Of a stretch of 40,923 nucleotides of DNA, positions 3,830-25,837 are shown in pieces. Below the pieces are notes generated by a model. That model made no database searches and was not told the DNA's origin. It worked only from the letters and a program-made list of their open reading frames with translations. The stretch is taken from the IMG/VR virus record IMGVR_UViG_3300049919_000113, positions 1-40,923 of that record. The stretch is one strand, 5' to 3'. The position numbers were made by a program, and so were the translations under genes. How positions within the stretch are numbered: position 1 is the first letter of the stretch; every line of letters starts with the position of its first letter. This DNA comes from a virus.

Positions 3830-3835
3830 TGTCGA

Positions 3836-4063
3836 TTATCCGTGAGCCGCTGCGAAAGCGCGAAGGTGAGATTCTGGCGTGCTGAGGTGTCCGCCCTCGG
3901 CCAATCCGAGTAGGTTTGAGTGCTGAATCTGAGCGCCATCTGATCCTCCCGTGTGGCCGTGATTCTGCCCCATGATGGCCCCGACAACGCCGTGCGCGTT
4001 CTTTTCAGCGGCGTGCTTTGCGACTGAGTATTCTGCGATTTGCTGGATGTTTGGCGATGACAC
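3836..4063 (-). CDS. Small fibre-associated protein (75 aa, GTG start)
   Basis: A 75-residue protein starting with GTG, one base after the stop of the gene at 4065-5210. A good GAGGTGG ribosome binding site lies upstream. It contains repeated His/Gly pairs (G-H-T-G-G and H-S-N-L-L-G-L-A-E-G-G-H) that echo the H-x-S-L-T-G-L repeats of the adjacent tail fibre. It may be a fibre adaptor or linker protein. An overlapping frame (3826-4071) was rejected because it is less phage-like and lacks a good start. Confidence 0.65.
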   Translation of the reverse strand: MSSPNIQQIAEYSVAKHAAEKNAHGVVGAIMGQNHGHTGGSDGAQIQHSNLLGLAEGGHLSTPESHLRAFAAAHG

Positions 4064-4064
4064 G

Positions 4065-5210
4065 TTACCACCTCACAATCACCAAACCCTGCGTCCCGAT
4101 GCCGTTTGCGCCAACCACAGCAGGATCAATTGTGCCTGAACCACCGCCGCCACCAGAACCATAACCTGTTCCGCTCGTTCCTGCTGAGACACTTCCATAA
4201 GCACCCGGAACACCTCCCATGCCTAATGGACTTGATCCCCCATGTCCGCCAACAAAATACGTTACTCCGGCAGAAAAACCAGTGGTTCCGGGCTGTGCTG
4301 CAATATTTATTGATCCTCCCGAACCTCCGGTCATTGTCGAAAAAACAGATGGCGTTCCGTTTCCCGTCACCACTGTTCCAACAGTCACCGTAATGTCAGA
4401 TGATGTTGTCAATGTACCTCTTGAATAAGCACCGCCGCTGCCCCCGTCACCAGGTGCATCATCGCCGGCATTAACCAATTCGACCTCAACATCGCCCCAA
4501 ATGGCAGAGAACGTACCGCTGGCCGTGATTATTTCCTCTCCGCCGAGCATGGCAGCTTGCTCAATACTCACCCCGTCGAAATAGACTGTCCCCGCGCCAG
4601 TGCTGCCGAGTTGCGTGGCAAGCTTGATCTTCACAAAGCGAGCATTGGCCGGAGCCGCGATCCGTCGCACGCATAGGCGCGGCGTCGTCGGTGTGTTTGT
4701 GGTCGTATAGATCGTGCTTTCACTGATCTGGGCAAGGTCAGCATCGAACCATAGCGCAGTGGCACTCGATGACACGTTGATTGCCGAAGCCTGAAACATG
4801 AGCCGGAATTGCTTAAGCTGTCCGCCCGTGCAATCCACTGCGCCGGATGACGTTAGCGTCCCGCCGCCGTTCGCTGCAACGGTTGATGTAATGGCCGCAC
4901 AATACTTCCCATCCATCGCGCCGGCTGTGCCAGTGGCGATCGTTCCGCCCGTGGCCAATACTTCGTCCCATCCATCGGTTGAATTGACTTCAAATGAGCC
5001 GTTGCGTAGCGTGTCAGATTCAACATCCAGCGAGGCAGAATTTACCCCGTCGTGATTGTGATTAACCGCCGCCGTGTAGCTTCCGCCAAGCCATTCTTCA
5101 AGATGAACCAATGAATCGCGGATTTGCGTGAATAGCGTTTCGGTCAGTGGAGAATCAACATCGATCTCCGCATCGGTTGGAACGCTGAATGTTTTGCTTG
5201 GCGCAGTCAT
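4065..5210 (-). CDS. Tail tip/fibre protein with glycine-rich C-terminal domain
   Basis: A 381-residue protein. The N-terminal about 65 residues look like a structural attachment region. Residues about 66-215 look like a carbohydrate-binding-type beta sandwich (an N-G-S-F-E start with a closing Y-F-D-G-V-S pattern). The C-terminal about 150 residues are a glycine-rich domain ending in G-L-V-I-V-R-W, as in tail fibre and adhesin tips. It overlaps the tail hub gene by four bases. It is probably a host-surface binding component that works with the long fibre downstream. The domain assignment rests on sequence pattern only. Confidence 0.7.
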   Translation of the reverse strand: MTAPSKTFSVPTDAEIDVDSPLTETLFTQIRDSLVHLEEWLGGSYTAAVNHNHDGVNSASLDVESDTLRNGSFEVNSTDGWDEVLATGGTIATGTAGAMDGKYCAAITSTVAANGGGTLTSSGAVDCTGGQLKQFRLMFQASAINVSSSATALWFDADLAQISESTIYTTTNTPTTPRLCVRRIAAPANARFVKIKLATQLGSTGAGTVYFDGVSIEQAAMLGGEEIITASGTFSAIWGDVEVELVNAGDDAPGDGGSGGAYSRGTLTTSSDITVTVGTVVTGNGTPSVFSTMTGGSGGSINIAAQPGTTGFSAGVTYFVGGHGGSSPLGMGGVPGAYGSVSAGTSGTGYGSGGGGGSGTIDPAVVGANGIGTQGLVIVRW

Positions 5211-7156
5211 GAGATTATGTACCCGTCGTCATTGTTGCTCATTTCATTGGTCACTGCGTCGCCCGCAAAGGCGTATCGGTCGCGTTGCTCCTGAGTTACC
5301 GCAGTATAGTTGCCTAGGCCAGCCGGAGCAATAAAACCGTATCGCACATCCTCTCGGAAGCCGGTCGAAAGCGCCTCAACTGATTGGTGCGTCCCCATAT
5401 CATCGATCTTTGTGATTCTCGCCAGCACTTGCTTAGGTTGCCCGTCGAAACCAACAAGATAGCGCGTGGTGATATAGACCAGTTGCCCCATCAGCACTTC
5501 GTCGGAATAGTCGAGATTGAACGCGAATTTATACGGCACATTGCGCCGCCTGATCAGCTTGCGCTTAACCACCGCCCGGACAAGCGATTGATTCTCGTCA
5601 TTCATCCATCTGGTTTGACGTAACTCTTGCCGCACGTCGCCGAACTCGTTAGCCGACTCTGCGTCCCCATCAACGGCAGAATCGCCGAAAATGTACGAAC
5701 TGGCCTCCTTTTGTGAAACCACAGGCGAACGCAAGTTGTAATCGGTCGCGGCCTCGGTGATCCGCATTTCATCCTGGCGCGTTACTTTGGTCTTGTCTTG
5801 CAGGAACTCATTGTCGGTCAATGTGACAAGGCTATAGACCTGCTCAGGCGCATTGACCTTGCCTTTTACCAGCGCCGCAACTGAATCCCACCACAGCGAT
5901 AAATTGAAGTCTTGGCAAAGGTCAGATAGTAGCGCAGATGCCTTTTCAGGCGCGGCAATGCAGACTGTAACGCTGCCACCGGCTGCCCAATCGGTGAGCG
6001 TGGTTCCAATCCCTGCCAAGTCGATATTAGCGTCTAGAATCCCCGCATCATTCAGCAAAGCCTGAATCACCGTTAGCGGCGTGGCGCTCTCGAAAACCCT
6101 GCATTGCTGCACCTTGGCGCGAACAGAATGATCAATCCGCTCTGTGCCGAACTGCTGGCGATATGTGCCGTCTGGCCAATACAAAGTGTTGCCAATGACG
6201 CTTGTGTATTTGATAACCTCATCGCCAATCCGCACCCATCCTGCCGCCGCATAATTGGCAGCGTCGTTGATCGTTAGCGATAGTGGCGAAACTTCGATTG
6301 AGCTATTGTTTGTAGGATTCGCCGCCCATGCAACTGAAATCACGGCAAGCCGAGTGGCCCCCGTGTAAGAGGTAATGACGCGCCGCTGCCCAGTGCCATC
6401 GCCTTGGATAACGTGGATCTCTTGGCCGACATATGCCCCATCAACCGGGCTCGCATCTTCGCTCAGTTGCGCGTTGTAATCCCCTGCCGAAACAAGCGGA
6501 ACGATGGCAGAGAAAGCCGGCAATGCCGCTGTCAGTTTCCCGGTCGTAACCGTTGGCACCATCGTGGTGTCTAGCAGCTTAGTCCGGTCAGATAATGTGA
6601 TCTGCACACGGTTTGCGGCGTCCGGCCCTTGGATATTGTCGATGATGTATTCCTCATCGCGCACCGCATCAAGGCTGAATGGTTCCGTGGCAAAGCCCCT
6701 GCGAAGCCGCGCCACCCGCCCGTAATAGTTTGGCGTGCGAGCTAACAGCCGATGCCAGTACGTCGAGCCGGCAGGCGTTGCGCGTGTTGCCCGGTACGGG
6801 TCGAGAACGTCTGCCACTTCCTCATCGGACAAGGTGATAGCGGCCCGACCTCGTACTGCCAGCCCCTTATCGCGCACGATCTCCGTGGCCGCACTATTGA
6901 TGGCGGTCATGTAAGGACGAACATCTTCGCCGGGCTCAAACGTCCCGCCGCGATGGCAGAACGATAACGTGGCCGTTCCGCGTGCATAGTTGGACTGATC
7001 TTGGCAAGATGTGAAAGTGTTATAACACTCCGAGCCAACAGCCCCCGCAGCCGTGCAAGGCACAACGCCATAGACGTTTTGGCACTTGTCTAAATCAAGC
7101 TCCAATCGCTCGATCTGGCGGCGATAGAACTTGATCTTTTCGGTTTCGCGGGTCAT
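5207..7156 (-). CDS. Tail hub / tip attachment protein
   Basis: A 649-residue protein in the usual place of the central tail hub, after the distal tail proteins and before the fibres. The N-terminus has several cysteines (about residues 24-66, including C-Y-N-T-F-x-x-C), as in DUF2163-type or minor tail protein L-like regions. The long middle and C-terminal parts look like hub beta domains. It should form the end of the tail tube and carry the fibres. It overlaps the next gene by four bases. I cannot name the family with certainty. Confidence 0.7.
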   Translation of the reverse strand: MTRETEKIKFYRRQIERLELDLDKCQNVYGVVPCTAAGAVGSECYNTFTSCQDQSNYARGTATLSFCHRGGTFEPGEDVRPYMTAINSAATEIVRDKGLAVRGRAAITLSDEEVADVLDPYRATRATPAGSTYWHRLLARTPNYYGRVARLRRGFATEPFSLDAVRDEEYIIDNIQGPDAANRVQITLSDRTKLLDTTMVPTVTTGKLTAALPAFSAIVPLVSAGDYNAQLSEDASPVDGAYVGQEIHVIQGDGTGQRRVITSYTGATRLAVISVAWAANPTNNSSIEVSPLSLTINDAANYAAAGWVRIGDEVIKYTSVIGNTLYWPDGTYRQQFGTERIDHSVRAKVQQCRVFESATPLTVIQALLNDAGILDANIDLAGIGTTLTDWAAGGSVTVCIAAPEKASALLSDLCQDFNLSLWWDSVAALVKGKVNAPEQVYSLVTLTDNEFLQDKTKVTRQDEMRITEAATDYNLRSPVVSQKEASSYIFGDSAVDGDAESANEFGDVRQELRQTRWMNDENQSLVRAVVKRKLIRRRNVPYKFAFNLDYSDEVLMGQLVYITTRYLVGFDGQPKQVLARITKIDDMGTHQSVEALSTGFREDVRYGFIAPAGLGNYTAVTQEQRDRYAFAGDAVTNEMSNNDDGYIIS

Positions 7157-9019: not shown

Positions 9020-11209
9020 TTACCCTCTCGATACTGCCAGATTGACGCCGTTACCGACGGCCTCGTTGATTGCCGGTATCAGCTTGTTTGCCACGCTATT
9101 GTAGTCGAAGGCGTCACCGTAAATAGTGATGCTCACGTCGCGCATTGCCTCAGCCTCGATAACATTAGACTGGCCTGTTAGCGCAGCCGCTGGCCTTGCA
9201 GATTCGATAGGCATTGCGCCGCCTGCGGAGGATGGTGCGCCGCCACCGCCACCGATTGATATGCTACCGCCGCTGCCGCCACCGCCTGACATTTGACCAA
9301 TCGATACCGCTGCGATTGATGCTGCTTTTGCATATCCAGAAGCCATTACAGCCGCTGCCGCCAGTGCCGCCTCTCCTGCCATAACGCCCATATAAACCGG
9401 GCCAGCGTATGGCCCCATTGTTGATGCTGTGGTTGCGGCGTTGGCGATCAATCCGGCCTCTGTCATTGCCGCTGCCGTTGATGTAGCAGTGATAACCTCT
9501 GCCACCTGAACGGCCTTCATTGCCGCAAAAAGAACCTTCGCCAGTGCTGCATTTTTCTTTCCGCCTGACTCAAGCAGTCGATAGATATTCTCGCCTGCCG
9601 TCATGTAATTTTGCTGAATCAGATTGTCAGCAGTTTGCTTTGCCCTGCGCTCATCTTCCCATATCTTTATTTTTGCATTGACATGTCGCACCTCTTCCTC
9701 TTCGGTGCTCAAATTGGCAGCCATCAGCTTTTGCATGTTTTCCTCATGCAATGTCGCTTCAATCTCGCCTTTATTCATGTTGTGCTCAGTCAGATAATCA
9801 AGCAACTTCTGACCTGCCGTCATGCGATTGTTTAGCGCGGCTTCCTCGCCAGCAATGCGGCCTTGTTCGATTGTGTCTGATAATGCTGCCTCATCTTCGG
9901 CAGACTTGATAAGGAACGCTTCCCATTCCGCCGCAGCAAGTGCAGCCGCGCCTAGGTCTTTGAAAACGGATAGGTCGCGTGTTTCCTCTGCCGCTTCCTT
10001 TGGCGCTTTTGTTTCCTTCGGTGCTTTCCCGGTTGCCACTTCGCCGAATCGGTCGCGTGCGTCTCGAATGTCGCCAAGCTTTGCCGCGCCTGCTAAAGCG
10101 CCTCGCGCCTGTTCAAGCTTTCCGACCTGATCAAGCTTGGCAATTTCCTCATTCAGAAAAGCGATCCGCTCGCGCTGCCACTCGGTGCGGATAACGCCTT
10201 CTTCGGTCAGGTTGGCAAGCTCGATCTTGAACGCCTTGGCGCGTTCCTCGCTGGTCGTAATCAGTAGGTCGCTAACAGCGTTCAGTGCAGGCAAGAGGAA
10301 GCCGGCGATTGAGTTAGCCGCCGCCTTCGCCATCAAGCCCATCTGGTCGAGATTGTCATTAAACTTTGCCGCGTCCTTGGCGAAGTCGTCAGATATTGCC
10401 GTGCCGAGCATTTCCGCCTCGATGCGGAACTTTTCAAGGCCAACTGAGCCTTCTTTTAGGACTGGCAGTAGCTCATCGCCTGCCCTGCTGAATGCTGCCT
10501 CAGATATGGCAGCAGCCTCAAGAGCCGTCGAAGCGCCTGCCACTCTATCCGCTACGTTTTTGAAGATCGTATCGGCGTCTAGCATCTTGCCGTTTGCATC
10601 GCGGATTTTTACCCCGAAGCTTTCAAGCTCTTCGCCTCCTCCTGCCAGCGTCTTTGCAAGCATCTTGAAGCCGCTTGCCATCGCCTCGTTGCTGACATTG
10701 GAAAGCGCAGCGGCGTGCTGATAGCCGGTGATTGCCGTCGCGCTTAGGCCGGTCTTGATTGACAGCGTATTGACGGCATCCGCAGCATCAATGGCGCTTT
10801 TAACCATATATGCCGTCGCCGTTGCCGCTGCTGTAGCTGCCGCCGCTATTGCCAATCCGTAGCGCCGATATTGTTCCTCGCGTTCCTGCAACAGTCTGGC
10901 ACTTTCACGCGCATTGGCGTCTGACTTAGACTGCGCCTCCATTGAATTGACAATAGCATAGGCGTGAGCCCGTTCCGCATCGGTCAGGTTCTGTAGCGAT
11001 ATTTCAATGCGCCGCTGTTCGGATGCGGTTTTCCCATACATCAAAACTTGACGCTGCAAGCTCTCGATGTATTTGTCTGAAGACAGCGTAACTTTTTCAG
11101 TGGTTGCCGCTGTGGTTCGTCCGGCCTCTGCCAGCTTCTCAAGATCGGTCGCGGCCTGCTTTACCTGCCGTGTGTCGACCTCAATTCCGAGTTTTGCCAA
11201 GTCAGTCAT
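9020..11209 (-). CDS. Tail tape measure protein
   Basis: A 729-residue protein, Ala-rich and largely helical. It has an N-terminal region typical of lambda-type tape measure proteins (L-A-K-L-G-I-E-V-D-T-R-Q-V) and long coiled-coil stretches. Two hydrophobic segments (about 120-145 and 295-315) and an Ala/Gly/Met-rich region at about 565-660 are probably membrane-active. A Gly/Ser linker precedes a short C-terminal tail. It overlaps the chaperone frame by four bases. With the usual rule of about 0.15 nm per residue it would predict a tail near 110 nm; that number is inference. Confidence 0.92.
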   Translation of the reverse strand: MTDLAKLGIEVDTRQVKQAATDLEKLAEAGRTTAATTEKVTLSSDKYIESLQRQVLMYGKTASEQRRIEISLQNLTDAERAHAYAIVNSMEAQSKSDANARESARLLQEREEQYRRYGLAIAAAATAAATATAYMVKSAIDAADAVNTLSIKTGLSATAITGYQHAAALSNVSNEAMASGFKMLAKTLAGGGEELESFGVKIRDANGKMLDADTIFKNVADRVAGASTALEAAAISEAAFSRAGDELLPVLKEGSVGLEKFRIEAEMLGTAISDDFAKDAAKFNDNLDQMGLMAKAAANSIAGFLLPALNAVSDLLITTSEERAKAFKIELANLTEEGVIRTEWQRERIAFLNEEIAKLDQVGKLEQARGALAGAAKLGDIRDARDRFGEVATGKAPKETKAPKEAAEETRDLSVFKDLGAAALAAAEWEAFLIKSAEDEAALSDTIEQGRIAGEEAALNNRMTAGQKLLDYLTEHNMNKGEIEATLHEENMQKLMAANLSTEEEEVRHVNAKIKIWEDERRAKQTADNLIQQNYMTAGENIYRLLESGGKKNAALAKVLFAAMKAVQVAEVITATSTAAAMTEAGLIANAATTASTMGPYAGPVYMGVMAGEAALAAAAVMASGYAKAASIAAVSIGQMSGGGGSGGSISIGGGGGAPSSAGGAMPIESARPAAALTGQSNVIEAEAMRDVSITIYGDAFDYNSVANKLIPAINEAVGNGVNLAVSRG

Positions 11210-14598: not shown

Positions 14599-15759
14599 TT
14601 AACCTAAGAGAATCGCGGTATGTTCCGGCTTGACGTTCTTCACACCCCAGACTGCGGACAGCTCATACTGCATCTGGCGATATTGGGCATACATCGCAAG
14701 CTCGAACGTGATACCGCTGATCGGGTCAGTGATCAACTGGCGATCAACTGCCATATCGCCTTCGTCGGGCAGAGCCGGCGCACGGGTAGCCAGAATCAGC
14801 GCCGAGCGTGCAAAGGCCATGCTGCGAGCCGCAGCGGCGATAACGGTAATCGCCGTGGCACCAGCCGGGATAGCTTGACGCAAGCCAGGAGCCGCCAACA
14901 CGAACGTACCGCCACCGGCAACAGCAGCATCGCCAGAAACCAGCACATACTTGTTGGTGTCACCCGCGAAGGTAATCACGTCACCTGCCACCAGCGTACC
15001 GGCACCAGCAGCGGCAAGCGTGATCGTGGTCGCGCCAACGGCGTAGCCAGCGGCATCGGTCGTTGCACCGGCTGCCGTGCCTGCGGTCGAAGTATTGACC
15101 TGCGCCGATTCACGCAACGCGAAGCCATGCACGTCGAGCAGAACGCCTTGGCGCAAAAGGATGTCGCTGCCTTCCGCATCAACGCCGCGCCCACCCTGCT
15201 TGCCGCGAAGGTTTGCCCCCGCTGCGGTATTCAGAACGAGGTGCATATCGCTGATCGGTGCGCCGTTATCCACGAGAATCTTGCGGACAAAAGACGCATC
15301 GGTGTAATCGCCAGCCGTGCCGAAAGGAGTGGTTCCTGCCGTGCCGTGAGCACGCGAGGCGGTGATATGCAGCGCGGCGAGGTCAGCTTCCATTTCGTTG
15401 GTCAGCGTGCGGATAGCCTGGGCAATCTGCGCTTGCTTGATTGCACGCGAGCCTGGGCCACCGTTATTGACGCCGCGTGACTCTTCGCCGTTCCATCGAA
15501 TCGGAACGCGCCGAGCCTTGGTGATCGTCAGTGAGACGTTGCCGATAGTCTGGTCGCCATCGTCCGGCGGCGTAACGCCCGGCGTGATGTTGCCAGCGGT
15601 AGCGGCAGGCGCAACGAAGGAACGAACCGTCTGATTAACCGCAGCGCGTTCGGTAGTCGGGTCGCGGGTTACTGCCGGGATGAAACCGACCAGCTCACGA
15701 GAAACTACGTCAAGTGCCGAATAGACTTCGGGAATCAGGTTAGTTAGAGTGTTTGCCAT
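14599..15759 (-). CDS. Major capsid protein, P22-coat-like
   Basis: A 386-residue coat protein with the P22 gp5-like pattern. It starts N-T-L-T-N-L-I-P-E-V-Y-S-A-L-D-V-V-S-R-E-L-V-G and is followed by the G-Q-T-V-type strand region. A long Ala/Gly-rich insertion (about residues 225-300) corresponds in position to the extra domain of P22-type coats. It would form the icosahedral shell, with the scaffold gene directly upstream. AGGAG lies ten bases before the ATG. The family call rests on recognisable N-terminal sequence and gene order. Confidence 0.88.
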   Translation of the reverse strand: MANTLTNLIPEVYSALDVVSRELVGFIPAVTRDPTTERAAVNQTVRSFVAPAATAGNITPGVTPPDDGDQTIGNVSLTITKARRVPIRWNGEESRGVNNGGPGSRAIKQAQIAQAIRTLTNEMEADLAALHITASRAHGTAGTTPFGTAGDYTDASFVRKILVDNGAPISDMHLVLNTAAGANLRGKQGGRGVDAEGSDILLRQGVLLDVHGFALRESAQVNTSTAGTAAGATTDAAGYAVGATTITLAAAGAGTLVAGDVITFAGDTNKYVLVSGDAAVAGGGTFVLAAPGLRQAIPAGATAITVIAAAARSMAFARSALILATRAPALPDEGDMAVDRQLITDPISGITFELAMYAQYRQMQYELSAVWGVKNVKPEHTAILLG

Positions 15760-18752: not shown

Positions 18753-20167
18753 TCCCCACCCTCCACCAGAGGCGCAACCATAACCGGCGCAGATTCTCCG
18801 ATTCTTGCTTGCTCCTCTTCGTACTCGATGCCCGGCTTGATGATCTCTCCGCGTTGCAGGTTGTCGAAAAGAGTCTGGCCAGACACTGCGCCGGTTTGCC
18901 AAGCCGTCACGAGCGCCGTAAGCTCTTGCGGCCCCATGCGTACCGGCACAAAGTCGCGGTTCAATTCATATTCAACCTCGCCCGATGCTCCGGCCCAAGC
19001 AGCTAACCACGTAAGGGCAAGGCTAATGCCCTGCGATACGGTCTGCGCCATCGCTGCAAGCTGGCTTTCCTCGCCTTTTCTGTGCGTGGCAGACACTTCC
19101 GCAGATTCAACGCCGGCCCTCTGTACCTCAAGCATCCGAGCGCCAAGCACTGCCATCTGGCTTTTCTTGTCCTCAAGGTTAAGCCGTAACGCTTCAAAGT
19201 TGCTGGCGATCTCAACAAAGTAAGCACGCGCCGAAGGGTCGGGCAGGCAATTAGCCGTCGGGCCACCGATGTAAATCTTGTTTTCCTGATCTGGCCGATG
19301 TCCGCTGATAAACAGCGAAGGCAATCCGCTGAAGTGGCATCCGTGCTCATAGTCCGAGCCGACGGCGTAATGGTGCAGGTTCATATCCACCAGGTCGTTA
19401 AGCGGCGGCTCTTCAATCTCCGTCCCGATGCTATCAACCCCGACAATCGAAAGCGGAATGAACCGCATCGGCTGGCCTTGCATCAACGGGAACACATCCT
19501 CCCCGACCTGCTCATCGTCGCCTTTGTCGTTGATGCGATAGACGCGCTGCCGATAGACGCCATTGAATAGGTCTAGCACGCGGTAGCGCGCTTCGCTGTC
19601 GTGTGAGTACTCATCGGTCGTCACTCTGGCCTGTTCGGTCAGCACGGCAAGCGCCAAGACGGAAGCGTTGCCGATGCGATCAACTCGCCAGTTAATAAGC
19701 GTTTCGGCTTGGTAGATTTGCAGTGACGGGCGAAGGCCCATTGACTGAGCCATTGCCACCGTTACGCCTTCCCCTGCCTGCTGCGGGTAATCCGCGAGGA
19801 TAGCGACACGTCCAACGGTCAGCGACTCCTCTACAACCTTTTGCGCGAACGTCTGCAAAGGTGAGCCAGCCATATCCACGTCGTCGAGATACGCATCAAG
19901 GCCGGCAGGCGCATCGATCTGTGCCGGCTTGCGGAAAAGCATCCCGCGAAGGCCGGATATTGTGCGCCAAAAGGCATTAAACACCGGCGAACGTGCGAGG
20001 CGTTTTTTGTAATCGGCGTCAGTCTCTTCGGCAAGCTTTGCGAGGTATAGCGTCCCGCCTGCGTGGATAGCTGCCTCACCAGTCGATAAGTCCCTGCATC
20101 GCCGCCATTTTGCAGCGGCTGCTTCATAAGTTGGGTGTAAAGTCTGAACGCCTTTTTGTGCCATCAT
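18749..20167 (-). CDS. Portal protein, DUF4055 type
   Basis: A 472-residue portal protein of the DUF4055 type. It forms the twelve-subunit ring at the head vertex through which the terminase drives DNA. It has the N-terminal region with Y-K-K-R-L-A-R-S and the G-L-R-G-M-L-F-R-K segment. A helical region follows around residues 325-385, and the C-terminal part is acidic. The start overlaps the TerL stop (ATGA). Length fits the family. Confidence 0.88.
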   Translation of the reverse strand: MMAQKGVQTLHPTYEAAAAKWRRCRDLSTGEAAIHAGGTLYLAKLAEETDADYKKRLARSPVFNAFWRTISGLRGMLFRKPAQIDAPAGLDAYLDDVDMAGSPLQTFAQKVVEESLTVGRVAILADYPQQAGEGVTVAMAQSMGLRPSLQIYQAETLINWRVDRIGNASVLALAVLTEQARVTTDEYSHDSEARYRVLDLFNGVYRQRVYRINDKGDDEQVGEDVFPLMQGQPMRFIPLSIVGVDSIGTEIEEPPLNDLVDMNLHHYAVGSDYEHGCHFSGLPSLFISGHRPDQENKIYIGGPTANCLPDPSARAYFVEIASNFEALRLNLEDKKSQMAVLGARMLEVQRAGVESAEVSATHRKGEESQLAAMAQTVSQGISLALTWLAAWAGASGEVEYELNRDFVPVRMGPQELTALVTAWQTGAVSGQTLFDNLQRGEIIKPGIEYEEEQARIGESAPVMVAPLVEGGE

Positions 20168-22329
20168 GTACCGCCTATTCTGATTCGTTCAATCTGCCTG
20201 ATAATCGGGAATTCATAGGCTATCGGGTAGCCAAATGCGTCACAGTTTGAAGAAATAACGCCTGATACGCTGAACATACCAAAATTAGGCACTGTTAAGC
20301 AATAAACCGGCTCTCTCTTTGCGATTTCTTGCGTTAAGACGCGCACTGCATTTTTTTCCGCATGTTTTCGTTGCTGAGTATTTGTTTTTGAAAAACTTTG
20401 CGCCACAAAAAACGCAAGTTCTTTCCTCGTTATCAATCCCAGATTTCTTTCGTGCTTTTGTTGAGCAATTTTTTGAACAAAATTTATTAACTCCGCGATC
20501 AACCGACGTGTAATGAATACCGCAGTGCGAGCATATTGCATCAATTTCCTTGTGCAATAGATGCTTTGTTGATTGATATTGCTGCTTGTGCCACTCGATC
20601 CCATCTTTGCTTTTGTGCCATTCTTTTGCGGCATCGATTGCCTCAATCGGCATAGTTGTTTTATCTTTCCCATGATGCGAGCTATGAAGCCATTTAGGCA
20701 TGAGTCCGAGATTTTCGATTGAATTGTTTGTTTTATCGTGGTCAATGTGATGAACGACAAAGCCAGTCGGGATTTCTCCATTAGCGTCTGACCAAACTTT
20801 TCTATGAAGTCTAACGCCGTCTCTTTGAAAATACGTGCCTCCGCAAAGATAATATGACTGTCCGCTGTATTCCTGCTTAGTTGCACTAACAATGACTGGC
20901 TGCATAGCAATTCTCCAATAAGATTATCGGCCCGCTTCCATCCTGATGTAGTCAAAAACAGATGGTCTTCGGTGCATCTTATTGTATCGCCATTTGACAG
21001 GGTAGTAAATAGCGTCCTTGCTAAATCCTTCTTCTTTCCACCGTTTGTATAAGCCCTATGAACCCCGTCATGGCACAGAACAACGCCTTCGGATGGGATG
21101 TCTTTAAATGCCATCAACTGCCCATTTACAACGATCTGCTGCTCACCTGAAAAGCACATATGATCATCGCCCGTCTTTTCAGGCTCACCGTTATCATCAT
21201 ATGCCTGTTTTTCCAGACATTTTGCCACAGTTGGCGCAAGTTTCGCATTTACCCATAGCTTACCTGTCTCAAATTGCTTATTGACGGAGAGAATGCGATC
21301 TCTGACCGCTGGATTGACGCTGTTACGCCTTACTTCAAAGCCGGCTTGTTCAAGCATCGCAATGTCCGACATTGACGCATTTACCGACTTGCGAGCGCCA
21401 CCACTGGCATCAGGATAGACCACAATGCGATGGCCTGCATATTTCCATCGTTCGGTGATAACCCGTATCACATCAGGCGTGTCTAGAAGGTCTTTAAGCT
21501 CTGCAACGGCGTGCCATCCATTCTCACGCTTGACGTATATCGTGCTGGCCATGCGCCCGACGTTGAAGTCTTGGCCGATGAATAACGTTTCACGCGGCTG
21601 TATTGTCTCGTTGCTCGCGTTCCTGATGCGATTGTACGAACGATAGACAGTCCCGCTTTTCAGGTTGCAGAATCGCCCATCGATGTACGCATCGATCAGC
21701 TCTGCCGGGTAGGTATCAATCAGGCTTTGAATGTACCCTGGCGGAAGGTTTCGCTCATTGTCCCTCGTGCTGGCCTGAATTAGCCCGTAAGTCTCGCGTA
21801 AGTGTGGACGTGCTTCCAATTCCTCAACAAATAGCCGATGCGTTTCCCGAAAGCCCTCGGGCGTGGTCGTAACGTCAATGCCGTTTGTGGCGTCTGGCCA
21901 TCGCATCCGGGCAAGTATCTTGCGCCATGCGTCCTTCGCCTTGTCCTGCGGCATGGTGTCGAGTTCATCCACCATCGAATGGCCGACCTTATAGCCGATG
22001 ATCGATTGTGGCCTTTCCATGCTGCGGCAAATGGTTGTCCCTCGATACTTGGCCCCGGAATAGAAATGCACCTCCTTGTTGCTCTCCATGATCTCAACTC
22101 GAAGGTCGAGACTATGAGCGACTTCCTCAATCGTCGGAAAGAAGATGTCGCGGATATGCGGGTACGTTGGCGCGTAGTAAGCCTGATTTACCCCAGGCTG
22201 AGACCAGAAGCGAGCGCACATAGCAGTAGAACCAACCCAACTCTTACCGGAACCGTAGCCAGCGCAGAAAGCTCGAAACTTCTGCGGCATCTGCATGAAT
22301 GCCGCTTGTGGCACATTAAGCGCGGGCAT
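20164..22329 (-). CDS. terL: Terminase large subunit with in-frame intein
   Basis: A 721-residue reading frame: terminase ATPase-nuclease of 417 residues interrupted by a 304-residue intein (392-695). The ATPase has a Walker A of the form G-Y-G-S-G-K-S at 24-30 and a Walker B ending D-E at 121-122. The nuclease has Asp254 (G-Q-D-F-N-V-G), Asp307 (Y-P-D-A-S-G) and the third acidic motif D-D-H at 388-390. The intein splits that third motif. After splicing, D-D-H-M would join C-D-A-F-G-Y, the normal D-x-x-x-D-A-x-x-Y terminase pattern. The protein packages DNA into the head through the portal. The gene overlaps TerS by 14 bases. Confidence 0.93.
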   Translation of the reverse strand: MPALNVPQAAFMQMPQKFRAFCAGYGSGKSWVGSTAMCARFWSQPGVNQAYYAPTYPHIRDIFFPTIEEVAHSLDLRVEIMESNKEVHFYSGAKYRGTTICRSMERPQSIIGYKVGHSMVDELDTMPQDKAKDAWRKILARMRWPDATNGIDVTTTPEGFRETHRLFVEELEARPHLRETYGLIQASTRDNERNLPPGYIQSLIDTYPAELIDAYIDGRFCNLKSGTVYRSYNRIRNASNETIQPRETLFIGQDFNVGRMASTIYVKRENGWHAVAELKDLLDTPDVIRVITERWKYAGHRIVVYPDASGGARKSVNASMSDIAMLEQAGFEVRRNSVNPAVRDRILSVNKQFETGKLWVNAKLAPTVAKCLEKQAYDDNGEPEKTGDDHMCFSGEQQIVVNGQLMAFKDIPSEGVVLCHDGVHRAYTNGGKKKDLARTLFTTLSNGDTIRCTEDHLFLTTSGWKRADNLIGELLCSQSLLVQLSRNTADSHIIFAEARIFKETALDFIEKFGQTLMEKSRLALSFITLTTIKQTIQSKISDSCLNGFIARIMGKIKQLCRLRQSMPQKNGTKAKMGSSGTSSNINQQSIYCTRKLMQYARTAVFITRRLIAELINFVQKIAQQKHERNLGLITRKELAFFVAQSFSKTNTQQRKHAEKNAVRVLTQEIAKREPVYCLTVPNFGMFSVSGVISSNCDAFGYPIAYEFPIIRQIERIRIGGT
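20245..21156 (-). mobile_element. Intein in TerL (304 codons) with nested out-of-frame HNH gene
   Basis: Splice block A begins at Cys392 (C-F-S-G-E-Q-Q-I-V). Block B is present at about residues 447-463, with the T-x-x-H pair (T-E-D-H) and then T-T-S-G-W. Block F is V-Y-C-L-T-V-P, and block G ends V-I-S-S-N, with Asn695 last and Cys696 as the +1 residue. The penultimate His of most inteins is Ser here, which also occurs in phage inteins and need not prevent splicing. The terminase frame stays open between B and F but shows no endonuclease motif. The endonuclease is instead encoded in another frame at 20285-20905. Confidence 0.92.
20285..20905 (-). CDS. HNH homing endonuclease nested in the intein in a different frame
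   Basis: A 206-residue HNH endonuclease. Its HNH core has V-V-H-H-I-D-H-D at about residue 50, N-N-S-I-E-N-L, and H-S-S-H-H. After it come two zinc-ribbon-like Cys pairs (C-S-H-C/C-S-K-N-C and C-V-F-C/C-G-K-K-C) and a basic C-terminus for DNA binding. It starts inside codon 475 of the terminase frame, two bases out of phase. GGAG lies eight bases upstream, so it can be translated alone. It ends just inside intein block F. It should cut intein-less terL alleles and spread the intein. Separate expression distinguishes it from the usual fused intein endonuclease. Confidence 0.9.
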   Translation of the reverse strand: MQPVIVSATKQEYSGQSYYLCGGTYFQRDGVRLHRKVWSDANGEIPTGFVVHHIDHDKTNNSIENLGLMPKWLHSSHHGKDKTTMPIEAIDAAKEWHKSKDGIEWHKQQYQSTKHLLHKEIDAICSHCGIHYTSVDRGVNKFCSKNCSTKARKKSGIDNEERTCVFCGAKFFKNKYSATKTCGKKCSARLNARNRKERAGLLLNSA

Positions 22330-22855
22330 CCTGTACCGTAAAAACGATCTGCTTAGGCTCTGGCGGCTCGCTTGCTGTCTTATTCATCCCGTCAATTGCC
22401 TCCTTATTCGCCCTCAACAAGTTAAGCCCGATCTCCGCCGATGAATTGGCGATCTTGGTCAGCACGGCGATGGCCTTCAGCGCCTCGTCGCTCTTCATCG
22501 GGTCAGCATCGTCGATCTTATCCACTTGGCCGTTAGCGATCCCGGAAAGCCGGTGCGAAGTCATTGCCCCGTAGTTTGAAGCCGCTGCAAGGTGTCCGCT
22601 GATTGATGCGAGCGTGGCGGCGAGGTTTAGTGCCTTACCTTGTTGCGCAACAGGAAGCTCGGACAAAACGATACCTGCCTCAAAAACCTTGCCTGCTGCG
22701 TTTTGCACGTTTTGCAGCGGTTGCGCAACTCCGCGCGAAATGGCACTGCGATGAACTTTGAACTCTTTGGCAAGGTCAGCGGCTTTTTCGCCGGCAAGTA
22801 ATCGTTTTTCGATTTGCGCTCGCTGGCTTTCTGATAATTTTGAAGGTCGTCCCAT
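22316..22855 (-). CDS. terS: Terminase small subunit
   Basis: A 179-residue protein with an N-terminal helix-turn-helix (A-A-D-L-A-K-E-F-K-V-H-R-S-A-I-S-R) that would recognise the packaging site. A helical oligomerisation region and an acidic, Pro-rich tail for contact with TerL follow. It overlaps TerL by 14 bases. Length and order fit a small terminase subunit. No cos or pac site can be defined from this window. Confidence 0.85.
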   Translation of the reverse strand: MGRPSKLSESQRAQIEKRLLAGEKAADLAKEFKVHRSAISRGVAQPLQNVQNAAGKVFEAGIVLSELPVAQQGKALNLAATLASISGHLAAASNYGAMTSHRLSGIANGQVDKIDDADPMKSDEALKAIAVLTKIANSSAEIGLNLLRANKEAIDGMNKTASEPPEPKQIVFTVQDARA

Positions 22856-22867
22856 GATTTACTTATA

Positions 22868-23125
22868 TCAGGATTTTGGATGGAAGGGAAGGTTAGACGG
22901 ATTGTCTAAAACGACAAATACCTCCTTCGCCCATGATTTGCCGGCAAGATACATTCCAACATTGAAATACTTGTTTAATTCAATGTTGATTATCACCTCT
23001 GTGCCATCATGGTCAGATACCTTAACAATCTTTGCAGTTGTCGGGATGATTTGGCATGAATCTTTGATTAGCAGGATGTCACCAGTCTTGATCTGATCTA
23101 TTGCCAACAATGGTTCAAGCTTCAT
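22868..23125 (-). CDS. Small protein upstream of terminase (85 aa)
   Basis: An 85-residue protein, not recognised. I start it at 23125, where GGGGAAA precedes the ATG. The longer frame to 23194 begins inside the upstream gene and reads as unlikely Arg-rich sequence. The protein has an N-terminal segment K-T-G-D-I-L-L-I-K-D that resembles small SH3-like beta barrels. Its role before the terminase genes is unknown. Confidence 0.65.
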   Translation of the reverse strand: MKLEPLLAIDQIKTGDILLIKDSCQIIPTTAKIVKVSDHDGTEVIINIELNKYFNVGMYLAGKSWAKEVFVVLDNPSNLPFHPKS

Positions 23126-23399
23126 TTTCCCCTGCCTCCGCGAACCCACTCTCCCCCGCAAGCGCGAAGTAAGCCGCGCCGTCGATGTAATCATCCAGCA
23201 CGAATGCCCCGCCCTGCGCGCGTGCGGCCTTTAGCACGGCCATGAATAGCCATCCTTGGGTTTCGGTCATTGCGTGGCCAGTAAGCGCGTTAAAAGCCTT
23301 TACCGACTTTGCCATGCTGCGCTCTGAATCGGTGTCTCGTTCGGCGGCGCGGTTGCCGATTGTTTCGGCGGCTTTGCTCAAAATCTGGTTTGCGTTCAT
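23115..23399 (-). CDS. DUF6378-type phage protein (94 aa)
   Basis: A 94-residue protein with the pattern known from DUF6378-type phage proteins. It has E-T-I-G-N-R-A-A-E-R-D near the start, then E-R-S-M, F-N-A-L-T-G, E-T-Q-G-W and D-D-Y-I-D-G-A-A-Y. The function of the family is not established. It is the first gene of the minus-strand late unit, 40 bases from a near-consensus promoter, so its start may lie in the leader region controlled by the HTH protein. Confidence 0.8.
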   Translation of the reverse strand: MNANQILSKAAETIGNRAAERDTDSERSMAKSVKAFNALTGHAMTETQGWLFMAVLKAARAQGGAFVLDDYIDGAAYFALAGESGFAEAGENEA

Positions 23400-23425: not shown

Positions 23426-23466
23426 AACTTGCTATGAAATTATAGCAAGTTTTCTTAAAAAATCAA
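23426..23466 (-). promoter_or_regulatory. Late promoter with overlapping operator palindrome
   Basis: On the minus strand TTGATT (23461-23466) and a perfect TATAAT (23439-23444) are separated by 16 bases, about 40 bases before the first late gene. A perfect 10-bp inverted repeat with TTGCTAT/ATAGCAA ends (23426-23435 and 23442-23451) covers the -10 box. A further TGCTAT lies at 23412-23417. A protein bound to the palindrome would block RNA polymerase. The same half-site occurs in the early control region at 26.05 kb. Confidence 0.7.
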
Positions 23467-23470
23467 TCTT

Positions 23471-23740
23471 GGCCCTACCGGCCCTAACCTTGGCCCTACC
23501 TAAAAAAATTAGGTAGGGCCACGGAAACCCTTTAATACCAATCGTTTCGGCGTGTGGCCCTACCGGCCCTAACCTTTTTCTTATAAATACTATAAATGCA
23601 ATAATACCTATGTATACAGGGTACACCTGTTTAGGTTAGGGCCGGTAGGGCCACCGGGCGGAAAACCTTGCTGCTTTTGGGTTTTGCCGGCCCCAACCTG
23701 CAAAATTTAGGTAGGGCCAAGGTAGGGCCAAGGTAGGGCC
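23471..23740. repeat. Iteron-like array, probable replication origin
   Basis: This is the main gene-free stretch (23400-23770). The 9-mer GGCCCTACC occurs at 23471, 23492 and 23556. Its complement GGTAGGGCC occurs at 23512, 23644, 23710, 23721 and 23732. Three variants GGCCCTAAC or complement lie at 23480, 23565 and 23635. Most forward copies are left and most reverse copies right of an AT-rich core at about 23577-23620. The last three copies are 11-bp tandem repeats. Inverted iteron clusters around an easily melted core next to a primase-helicase gene are what a theta-type phage origin looks like. An operator array is the alternative. Confidence 0.7.
23492..23520. other. 12-bp stem hairpin made of two inverted iterons
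   Basis: GGCCCTACCTAA and its exact complement flank a five-base A loop. The hairpin contains one forward and one reverse iteron. It could extrude as a cruciform in the origin, or act as a transcript hairpin. The A-rich loop and lack of a T-run make a simple terminator less likely. Confidence 0.7.
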
Positions 23741-23742
23741 AC

Positions 23743-23765
23743 AAAAAACCCGCCATTGGCGGGTT
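23743..23765 (-). terminator. Rho-independent terminator after primase-helicase gene
   Basis: On the minus strand AACCCGCC-AAT-GGCGGGTT is followed by a run of T residues (stem arms 23747-23754 and 23758-23765). It lies five bases after the primase stop. It would end the HTH/primase transcript before it enters the iteron region and the late genes, keeping the two minus-strand units separately controlled. Confidence 0.8.
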
Positions 23766-23770
23766 AGTGG

Positions 23771-25837
23771 TTAAAACGGGCATTTGTTATAAAAATAAGT
23801 TCTGTTTGATCCGTCTCTTTTTCGGTATCGGTCATAACCAAGAGCCCTTAAACATGATGCAACGCGCATTTCTTCACGCCGTGTCACCATCTTTTCAGGA
23901 ATCTCTAGCGCACCTTTCACAACGTCGATTATGCGGAATTCTCGATCCGCTGGCCTACCACCAATAACGCAATCGTTTTCTAGCCATGCGGCGATGGTGT
24001 CCTCCCATATATCCCTGATCATGTGCGAGCTATGCACCTCAGCAGATAGCTTTTCAACAGCCCAATGAATCCCGTGTTCTCGGTAATAGGTTGCCGCCTC
24101 TGCCCACAATTGATCGCGGTCAATGATCAATGTATCAACGTCAATACGCCCAACCTCTACTGGCAACCATCTTCTGTTTCCGGTCGTATCTGTTAAAAAT
24201 TCGCTGTCGTTTGACGTACCGACAAACAGCAAGCGGCGCGGGATGATTGTTTCGTATTCGATATATTTTGGAACCCAAGCCTCATGGGTTTTGCTGATAA
24301 ATGACTTGATGTGATTTGCGTCCTTGCTATTCAGGCCGCGAAGCTCGCCTAACTCAACCACCAGCTTACCGCGAACCTTGCGTGATATATCCGCGTCCTT
24401 GTCCTGCAAGTCCAGCTCACAAAACAAATGATCTTCTGGCACCAGCGCGCGCACAGCACGGGATTTACCGGCCCCCTGCTCACCAATTAGCACCGGCACC
24501 ATGTCAGCTTTCACCCCTGGCGTAATAACGCGCCCAGCGAGCGCAGACCACATGTATAGCGCAACCCCCCGCATGTAGTCAGTATCTGGGCAACCCAGAT
24601 AAGTCTGCATAAAGTTGGCAATACGTGGCACCTTGTCCCATTGCAACCCACTGAGCCAATTTTGTGCGCTGTCGAAAGATCGTTGCTTGGCGACCGCATG
24701 CACCGCCGCGCGGATGATCTCAACTGTCGGGGCTTTCAAAAACTCTCGCTGGTAAAGCCTGCGCCTTAGCCAAGTGTAATCATCATCTGCAAACGGTCGG
24801 ATAATCCCCGTTCCGTGTTCAATCATCACCGAACCGCTTAACTCGTCAAAGCTAACCTGACAGCCTGTATATGTTGGATGTTCAAGTGCTAGCATGGTGT
24901 TGTGCAGGTTTTCAGGCACACGACCATCGCTTTTTCGGCATTCAACAAACGCTGGCCGGCTTTCGTCCTCAACTGGCGCAACATTGCTCGGAAAATCCAC
25001 CGCATCAAAGTCAGACCATCCGCCCGATGACGCTAATCCTTTTATGGTTCCAATTGTCACCACTTGCCCGGATGGGTTTCCTGTAATGGATTTCCACTTT
25101 TTGACCAGCGCATCTCGGCCCGGATAGGTTGCACCGTCTTTTGACCAACTATCAAAAAGCGGAAAACCCTCCGCGCCAAACTCATGATGCAGCCCTTGCG
25201 CGATACGCCACCATTGATCGTAATCACAATCAGGACTGATAAACGTCAGCATCCGCGCCGCGTCACGCGGATCGATGTCAGATGGTTTGCGCTCACTTTG
25301 AGCCCCGCCTGCGCCGAATCGCTCAGTGTATAGGGTTAGAATGTCCTCGCTAAGTGGCGCGATGCCGTCGGCGAATGTCTCAATTGGTTGCCCCGTGTAA
25401 GTCGTGAAACCCTTAGTCGCAAAAAACTCAACACAGAACCCACCTTCGGGCGGCGCTAGGTCTTTACGGTTGCCGGGAACCTCGCCGATAAAAAAGGCAT
25501 GAATCCCGCGCCCTGATGGGCTTGTCTCGGTGTAAGTGCCAAGGCATAGTCTTTCAACGTCTGGCCTTAGCTCACCGTCAATGACCACGTTATCAAAATC
25601 AACAACCGTGATACCCGCACCGGACATTGACGCATAGCCAACCCCGGCAAAACCAACCGCCGATAATGCCTCGTCAAACGTCACCAATTTGGAGCGGTCA
25701 GACTGTGAGCCCTGCACCCCGCGCCGTCGCGTACCATCCGAGTAATACGGAACTTTGGCAGGCTTAGGGCCGTCGCCCTCAAGTCGCCAGCATAACCATT
25801 GCCGCTGGCTGGCGATAATCTCAGGTGGCCGAATCAT
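23771..25837 (-). CDS. Primase-polymerase/helicase with VirE-like ATPase domain
   Basis: A 688-residue replication protein. The N-terminal prim-pol domain (about 1-175) has V-V-D-F-D-N with Asp80 and Asp82 and a S-P-S-G-R-G-I-H segment at 106-113. A PriCT-2-like helical region follows (about 190-270; D-Y-D-Q-W-W-R-I-A-Q-G). The C-terminal part (about 380-640) is a VirE-type superfamily 3-like ATPase with Walker A G-E-Q-G-A-G-K-S at 452-459 and a later G-N-R-R-W. It would prime and unwind DNA at the neighbouring iterons. The 5' end overlaps the HTH gene by 17 bases. Confidence 0.88.
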   Translation of the reverse strand: MIRPPEIIASQRQWLCWRLEGDGPKPAKVPYYSDGTRRRGVQGSQSDRSKLVTFDEALSAVGFAGVGYASMSGAGITVVDFDNVVIDGELRPDVERLCLGTYTETSPSGRGIHAFFIGEVPGNRKDLAPPEGGFCVEFFATKGFTTYTGQPIETFADGIAPLSEDILTLYTERFGAGGAQSERKPSDIDPRDAARMLTFISPDCDYDQWWRIAQGLHHEFGAEGFPLFDSWSKDGATYPGRDALVKKWKSITGNPSGQVVTIGTIKGLASSGGWSDFDAVDFPSNVAPVEDESRPAFVECRKSDGRVPENLHNTMLALEHPTYTGCQVSFDELSGSVMIEHGTGIIRPFADDDYTWLRRRLYQREFLKAPTVEIIRAAVHAVAKQRSFDSAQNWLSGLQWDKVPRIANFMQTYLGCPDTDYMRGVALYMWSALAGRVITPGVKADMVPVLIGEQGAGKSRAVRALVPEDHLFCELDLQDKDADISRKVRGKLVVELGELRGLNSKDANHIKSFISKTHEAWVPKYIEYETIIPRRLLFVGTSNDSEFLTDTTGNRRWLPVEVGRIDVDTLIIDRDQLWAEAATYYREHGIHWAVEKLSAEVHSSHMIRDIWEDTIAAWLENDCVIGGRPADREFRIIDVVKGALEIPEKMVTRREEMRVASCLRALGYDRYRKRDGSNRTYFYNKCPF

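Follow-up and report, generated by a model that had tools for sequence, protein, structure and literature searches.

A two-armed iteron array directly behind a VapE-family primase-helicase gene as the probable replication origin of a tailed phage

The segment at positions 23471 to 23740 is, with a probability of about 0.87, the replication origin of the phage that carries it, where the protein encoded by the adjoining upstream gene binds. The window, meaning the whole stretch of DNA that was analysed, is the entire virus record of 40,923 bases. A replication origin is well supported here because a two-fold array of short repeats (iterons) and an AT-rich core lie directly behind a primase-helicase gene of the VapE family, and further support comes from the recurrence of the same layout in phages and prophages and from the published SaPI and PICI origins of the same plan. 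The original prediction was of a likely replication origin of a new type. The origin is borne out and the novelty is not, as the two-sided plan is already known, and with the window one more phage joins an established class of origins.

An exact-match count over the 40,923-base record gives eleven copies of GGCCCTAMC, all inside 23471-23740, in agreement with the eight exact GGCCCTACC repeats and three GGCCCTAAC variants first reported there. The count elsewhere that had been proposed as a check finds zero further exact copies of GGCCCTACC or GGCCCTAAC in the record, and the reversed, uncomplemented control pattern likewise has 0 copies in it. When one mismatch is allowed the whole window holds 13 matches, 11 of them in the cluster, against a shuffle mean of 4.68. 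A degenerate twelfth copy, GGCCCCAAC, had been overlooked, and with its inclusion there are 3+1+2 copies on each side of the core, six per arm. From left to right the array is made up of the following elements.

23471-23500, plus strand: three outer iterons, GGCCCTACC, GGCCCTAAC, GGCCCTACC
23512-23520, minus strand: single reversed iteron of this arm, forming a 13-bp hairpin with the copy at 23492
23556-23573, plus strand: inner iteron pair, GGCCCTACC, GGCCCTAAC, 9-bp spacing
23574-23634, no strand: AT-rich core, proposed melting site
23635-23652, minus strand: inner iteron pair, GGCCCTAAC, GGCCCTACC, 9-bp spacing
23689-23697, plus strand: degenerate twelfth iteron, GGCCCCAAC, mirror partner of 23512-23520
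23710-23740, minus strand: three tandem GGCCCTACC iterons at 11-bp spacing, outer part of the other arm

The AT-rich stretch between the arms is present as described, but it extends over 23574-23634 and not about 23577-23620; its AT content is 0.72 against 0.48 for the genome, and 0.33% of 61-base windows are equally AT-rich. The perfect hairpin said to be formed by two copies also exists (23491-23503 with 23509-23521, loop AAAAA), although its stem is 13 bp long instead of 12, and the three tandem copies, at 23710, 23721 and 23732, do have the 11-bp spacing. The contrast that had been drawn between this symmetrical, two-sided plan and simple one-direction iteron arrays is correct. All 12 copies have a mirror partner on the opposite strand about a centre at 23604.5, within a tolerance of 2 units of summed position, which is matched by 1 of 20,000 random arrangements. 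With the positions fixed and only the orientations shuffled it is matched by 1384 of 20,000, and the symmetry of the array therefore lies mainly in its spacing.

The array is intergenic, as had been noted, and borders the 3' end of the primase-helicase gene, starting 30 bases beyond its stop codon (23771-23773, minus strand). The encoded protein consists of an N-terminal primase-like part, PriCT_2, a VapE-like AAA+ helicase and a C-terminal winged helix, and matches the PHROG 256 DNA helicase (1.9e-87). The surrounding features are these.

23115-23399: DUF6378 gene, on the other side of the array, behind the promoter-like site
23439-23466, minus strand: promoter-like site TTGATT-16-TATAAT with TG before the second hexamer, a consensus match only
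23747-23765, minus strand: terminator-like hairpin directly after the primase-helicase gene, 8-bp stem and TTTT, a consensus match only
23771-25837, minus strand: primase-helicase, 688 aa, proposed origin-binding initiator (PF05272 8e-60, PF08707 6.7e-14)
23783-23836, minus strand: codons of the C-terminal beta-hairpin, residues 668-685, proposed iteron reader (predicted strands, covariation)

The promoter-like site flanks the array on its outer side and is directed away from it, and the terminator-like hairpin separates the array from the upstream gene. These two features would suit an operator, at which a repressor or activator bound the repeats and controlled the promoter at 23466-23439 together with the downstream operon. 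Such a function is very unlikely as the main one, since in relatives the layout and the repeats follow the VapE gene into varied surroundings (ahead of antiterminator Q genes in prophages of E. coli, and next to different genes in APSE-1, YeP5 and U5) and since the iterons covary with a hairpin of the VapE protein. The array may nevertheless have a side role in regulation. Terminase genes are found nearby (20164-22855), and portal and head-morphogenesis genes are also present, so the window is that of a tailed phage and not of a satellite. The proximity of the terminase genes would be expected if the repeats were packaging (pac/cos), integrase arm or partition sites instead of an origin, and in four other loci (L121-L124) similar GGCCCTACCCA repeats adjoin the gene of a tyrosine integrase that has an arm-binding domain; this explanation is nonetheless the least probable of those considered, as the constant neighbour of the layout in relatives, themselves fetched by their VapE gene, is the VapE gene. 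Two further observations concern other parts of the window. The terminase large subunit (721 aa, 20164-22329, minus strand) contains an intein-like stretch at residues 440-694, behind the terminase domains, which matches PF14890 with an E-value of 2.8e-6, under the curated cut-off. A 286-aa open frame at 14620-15480 (plus strand) runs antisense to a 386-aa frame at 14599-15759 (minus strand), which may be due to chance.

How does the proposed origin compare with those already described? Allele-specific pairing between Rep and ori is known in SaPIs, and P4-type repeats are recognised by alpha. In lambda-type origins the iterons are located inside the O-type initiator gene and the helicase loader is separate; this type was considered for the window and rejected, as the array is intergenic and the neighbouring gene encodes a VapE helicase. 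In SaPIs, as described in PMC7581432, the origin lies directly downstream of the initiator-helicase gene and contains short iterons that are recognised by the C-terminal domain of Rep. The window has the same origin placement and short iterons, and the model of its protein matches the PriRep1-dsDNA structure 7pds; it differs from SaPIs in uniting primase and helicase in one protein, in belonging to a phage that has terminase and portal genes, and in its own iteron sequence. In E. coli PICIs the order is pri-rep and then ori, and a plasmid with the rep-ori of EcCICFT073 was able to replicate in DH5alpha, according to PMC6092414. The gene-then-ori order is that of the window, although PICIs are satellites and the window is a phage. 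The anatomy of the SaPI/PICI-type plan is found in the window, with the proposed origin directly downstream of the rep gene and arms of 6 + 6 iterons around an AT core, but a whole PICI element, a satellite without the full structural gene set, is not, given its terminase, portal and head-morphogenesis genes. For SCCmec, again in PMC7581432, the C-terminal domain of the Cch2 helicase is described as binding direct repeats just behind its own gene; the repeat placement is the same, and the differences lie in its three 5-nt repeats and in the primase arrangement. In geminiviruses, according to PMC12548392, the repeat pattern is conserved and its sequence varies between close relatives, with the iteron sequence not essential for replication. 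The VapE loci resemble these in their varying iterons, but the geminivirus protein is a rolling-circle Rep of plant viruses and acts by another mechanism.

The relationship with the SaPI system extends to the predicted structure of the protein. An AlphaFold model of the primase-helicase, made from 43 sequences (pLDDT 85.5, pTM 0.58), ends with a helix at residues 653-665 followed by a beta-hairpin with strands at 668-675 and 678-685, a block with a pLDDT of 84-92. Its best PDB match is PriRep1 with dsDNA (7pds, Foldseek 5.4e-24), which we take to be a SaPI protein and whose annotation reads 'Similar to D. nodosus vapE'. Superposition on 7pds_A gives a Z of 30.9 over 386 aligned residues, with an rmsd of 3.8 and 22% identity, and the N-terminal part of the model matches NrS-1 PrimPol with a Z of 17.6. 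By homology and predicted fold, the putative initiator belongs among the self-loading helicases of the Rep/D5/VapE kind.

The same layout is seen behind VapE genes elsewhere. On reading, all seven of the named VapE phages that were fetched have clusters of short repeats on both strands around a spacer behind the gene, each with its own repeat, such as GTAACAACC in APSE-1, AGACAACCT in YeP5 and TGTCCCACC in U5. The census covered 178 distinct loci, for the most part taken from viral contigs in four scans, with the relatives fetched by their VapE gene, and an array was scored where at least 6 copies of one 9-mer, with one mismatch and at least 2 per strand, fell within [-100,+350] of the gene end. 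By this threshold an array is present in 89 of the 178 loci, compared with 20 of the 2957 control windows that were drawn from them. Most of the misses belong to the Pseudomonas phage U5 clade, where the array is found some 375-650 bases downstream, behind a small ORF. A looser score, taken at any of four fixed offsets, is passed by 139 of the 178 loci, and the other 39 have no array at those offsets; several loci of the A3 set have best scores that are weak or displaced. Chromosomal loci were fetched afterwards, and of the 58 that were loaded (L451-L508) 42 had a usable gene end, 3 were without a stop or start and 13 were without a tblastn hit; the array is present in 26 of the 42, compared with 3 of 205 control windows.

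Within these arrays the core has a higher AT content than the gene in 126 of the 131 cases with a core, and many lineages carry an iteron sequence of their own. Outside the U5 clade the commonest order of copies is ++-+++ before the core and -- or --- after it, most arrays having 5-6 copies to the left and 2-3 to the right; they start at about the stop codon, with a median core of 63 bases and a tandem spacing of mostly 9 or 10 bases. The idea of a full dyad in every array was dropped, the general dyad test across 139 arrays being mostly negative: 14 of the 139 beat a random null at 5 of 100, and full two-armed symmetry is not general. Near-full symmetry is rare, and is found in L064, PS3, APSE-1 and L145. 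The array of L064 sits inside the 3' end of the VapE open frame, which runs on across the array behind the hairpin codons such that, at about 4317-4611, twelve iterons are translated. In each of the 14 E. coli loci that were inspected the array is followed by an antiterminator Q gene.

What, then, reads the repeats? Covariation was sought by ranking protein columns by mutual information, against shuffles, for each variable iteron position. From the 178 loci, 139 arrays were retained by score, 131 of them with a core, 130 with conserved copies and a protein of more than 300 residues, and 120 that were distinct by C-terminus and iteron. Among these 120, the 43 of the U5 clade were analysed alone and 28 outside the register (C at 6, ACC at 8-10) were excluded, leaving 49 arrays, which were written toward the core in the common register TGNNNCNACC, loose at positions 1-2. 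In the 49 arrays the top seven of 360 columns for iteron position 3 are 679, 674, 672, 681, 671, 686 and 680, the top three for position 4 are 672, 674 and 679, and the top column for position 7 is 683, all of them at the far C-terminus within 671-686; for position 5 the top column is 634, outside the hairpin, followed by 679 and 682. Tryptophan, phenylalanine or tyrosine at residue 683 goes with C, A or T, respectively, at iteron position 7 in 40 of the 49 loci and fails to do so in 9. When the 18 proteins joined by body identities of 90% are taken by themselves, the nine highest of 87 columns all fall in 671-686. Taking a single protein from each remaining cluster (n=28) gives a weaker signal, in which 679 and 681 come first and 672 fifth, with other columns mixed in. 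In the U5 clade the best of 191 columns for the central base corresponds to window column 670 (K with T in 18/18, R with C in 24/25), and the other three varying iteron positions have top columns outside the hairpin. The covariation agrees with the C-terminal domain of the initiator acting as the iteron recogniser, and suggests that a small C-terminal hairpin of the VapE protein reads the repeats letter by letter. In the model, residues 670, 672 and 674 together with 679, 681 and 683 alternate along the two strands and, from the usual geometry of a hairpin, would lie on one face of it.

Comparison of close relatives points in the same direction. For 13 disjoint sister pairs with a body identity of at least 0.83 the whole hairpin, 668-685, was compared, because the eight 'wing' columns had been chosen on the same data. 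The iteron is equal in 5/5 pairs with hairpins at least 0.8 identical and different in 8/8 with hairpins below this value (13 pairs together, Fisher p 0.0008). When all pairs with bodies of at least 0.85 are taken, which are not independent, the same iteron is shared by 0/98 with a hairpin identity below 0.6, 5/37 at 0.6-0.8 and 20/23 at 0.8 or above. For instance, L165 and L171, whose bodies agree at 0.99, differ in the hairpin and in the sequence, though not the placement, of their iterons, and keep the core ACCCCATATATATATATAAGTCG. Pairs with different iterons retain a similar core, with an identity of 0.83 at +60 to +120 as against 0.60-0.64 at -60 to +60. Among the close relatives L165, L171, L163, L158, L166 and L219 all copies within an array change together from one relative to another and the AT core stays.

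A held-out set was fetched after the rule had been formed, consisting of 14 E. coli prophage loci, from the 101 records with a match, together with the chromosomal locus L454 and with L451, L509 and L510, of which L509 had no core and L510 was unscored. In 15 of the 16 scored loci, the 14 from E. coli and L454, all 4/4 variable positions were predicted from the nearest training hairpin. The exception, L451, scored 0/4 because the script placed the core in a different gap; judged by eye, its raw repeat, AGGTGGTCT / AGACCACCT, would agree. The 15 loci represent three specificities only, with hairpins that are identical or 0.94 alike to the training ones, and the result is therefore a confirmation and not a hard test.

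Could this covariation reflect shared ancestry only, with a block at the gene end inherited or exchanged as a unit and the iterons read by another protein or domain? The hairpin codons adjoin the array, so that an exchange would move both, and several non-hairpin columns also score. Yet a simple block swap would not be expected to leave a similar core beside different iterons, two clades point to the hairpin independently, and the window shares its iteron with L064 at a body identity of 0.32, their identity being 0.62 at eight hairpin positions that were picked on the same set. Ancestry as the sole cause is accordingly improbable, if less so than the operator. It is somewhat more likely than not that the hairpin-face residues 670, 672, 674, 679, 681 and 683 set the variable bases of TGNNNCNACC by a nearly readable code, and that the hairpin and all iterons of an array switch together with the layout and core kept. 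If this is true, one VapE gene family would comprise many mutually blind replicons.

What the analysis itself demonstrates is the anatomy of the array, its recurrence and the covariation; with the published work on SaPI, SCCmec and PICI elements a course of replication can be outlined for the window. The winged-helix hairpin of each primase-helicase subunit would read one iteron, and subunits would gather on the two facing arms to form two hexamers, which could then melt the AT-rich core and unwind outward as opposed helicases. Primers would be made by the N-terminal primase part, thereby starting synthesis. The presence of six iterons per arm, one for each subunit of a hexamer, is suggestive only. 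With the hairpin codons in the last ~60 bases of the gene, beside their target sites, lock and key would stay together in DNA exchange.

The wider comparison carries more weight than the window itself, in that it provides a natural series of initiator-origin pairs. Arrays behind VapE genes with lineage-specific repeats, and the covariation of hairpin and iterons, were not found by full-text searches of open-licence papers. Some of the pairs have bodies at least 95% identical with different hairpins and iterons, making the choice of origin testable with natural alleles, and these alleles also allow one to test how large a number of repeats is altered along with a single protein. Of the 5426 complete E. 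coli genomes (ecoli_genomes), 101 have a VapE module that is 80-90% like L165, and a standard host is therefore at hand.

The single primase protein found no relative in viral_contigs, but alignments used as the query did, and the nearest protein relative found is L140, at ~43% identity. When the array was used as a DNA query, the matches in phages were short, covering at most 10% of it, plasmids had none, and no record closely similar to the array in DNA was found. The 16-mer GGCCCTACCGGCCCTA matched at least 119 stretches. Of the four clustered matches that were read, those in L034, L039 and L054 resemble, as judged by eye, coding repeats for a collagen-like Gly-Pro-Thr sequence, and the fourth, L064, carries a VapE gene, as does L010; the 9-mer is therefore not diagnostic by itself. 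Of the stretches with the 11-bp tandem pattern, 6 viral and 7 chromosomal, none had a VapE relative when searched by tblastn with two queries.

The GGCCCTACCCA repeats of L121 (3644-3915), L122, L123 (106-427) and L124 (356-627) have an 11-bp spacing and stand beside a tyrosine integrase gene, the arm-binding domain of which is confirmed in L121 and L124, and they are perhaps integrase arm sites. In L125 two GGCCCTACC copies at 11 bp (10410-10429) lie inside a 391-aa frame without a Pfam match, which may encode a replication protein. Finally, a 1613-aa frame in L128 from Polyangium fumosum (1378-6219) joins a DUF3854 part, a DUF927 part and DNA polymerase A, and seven GGCCCTAMC copies on both strands (4269-4540) lie inside this frame between DUF927 and the polymerase.
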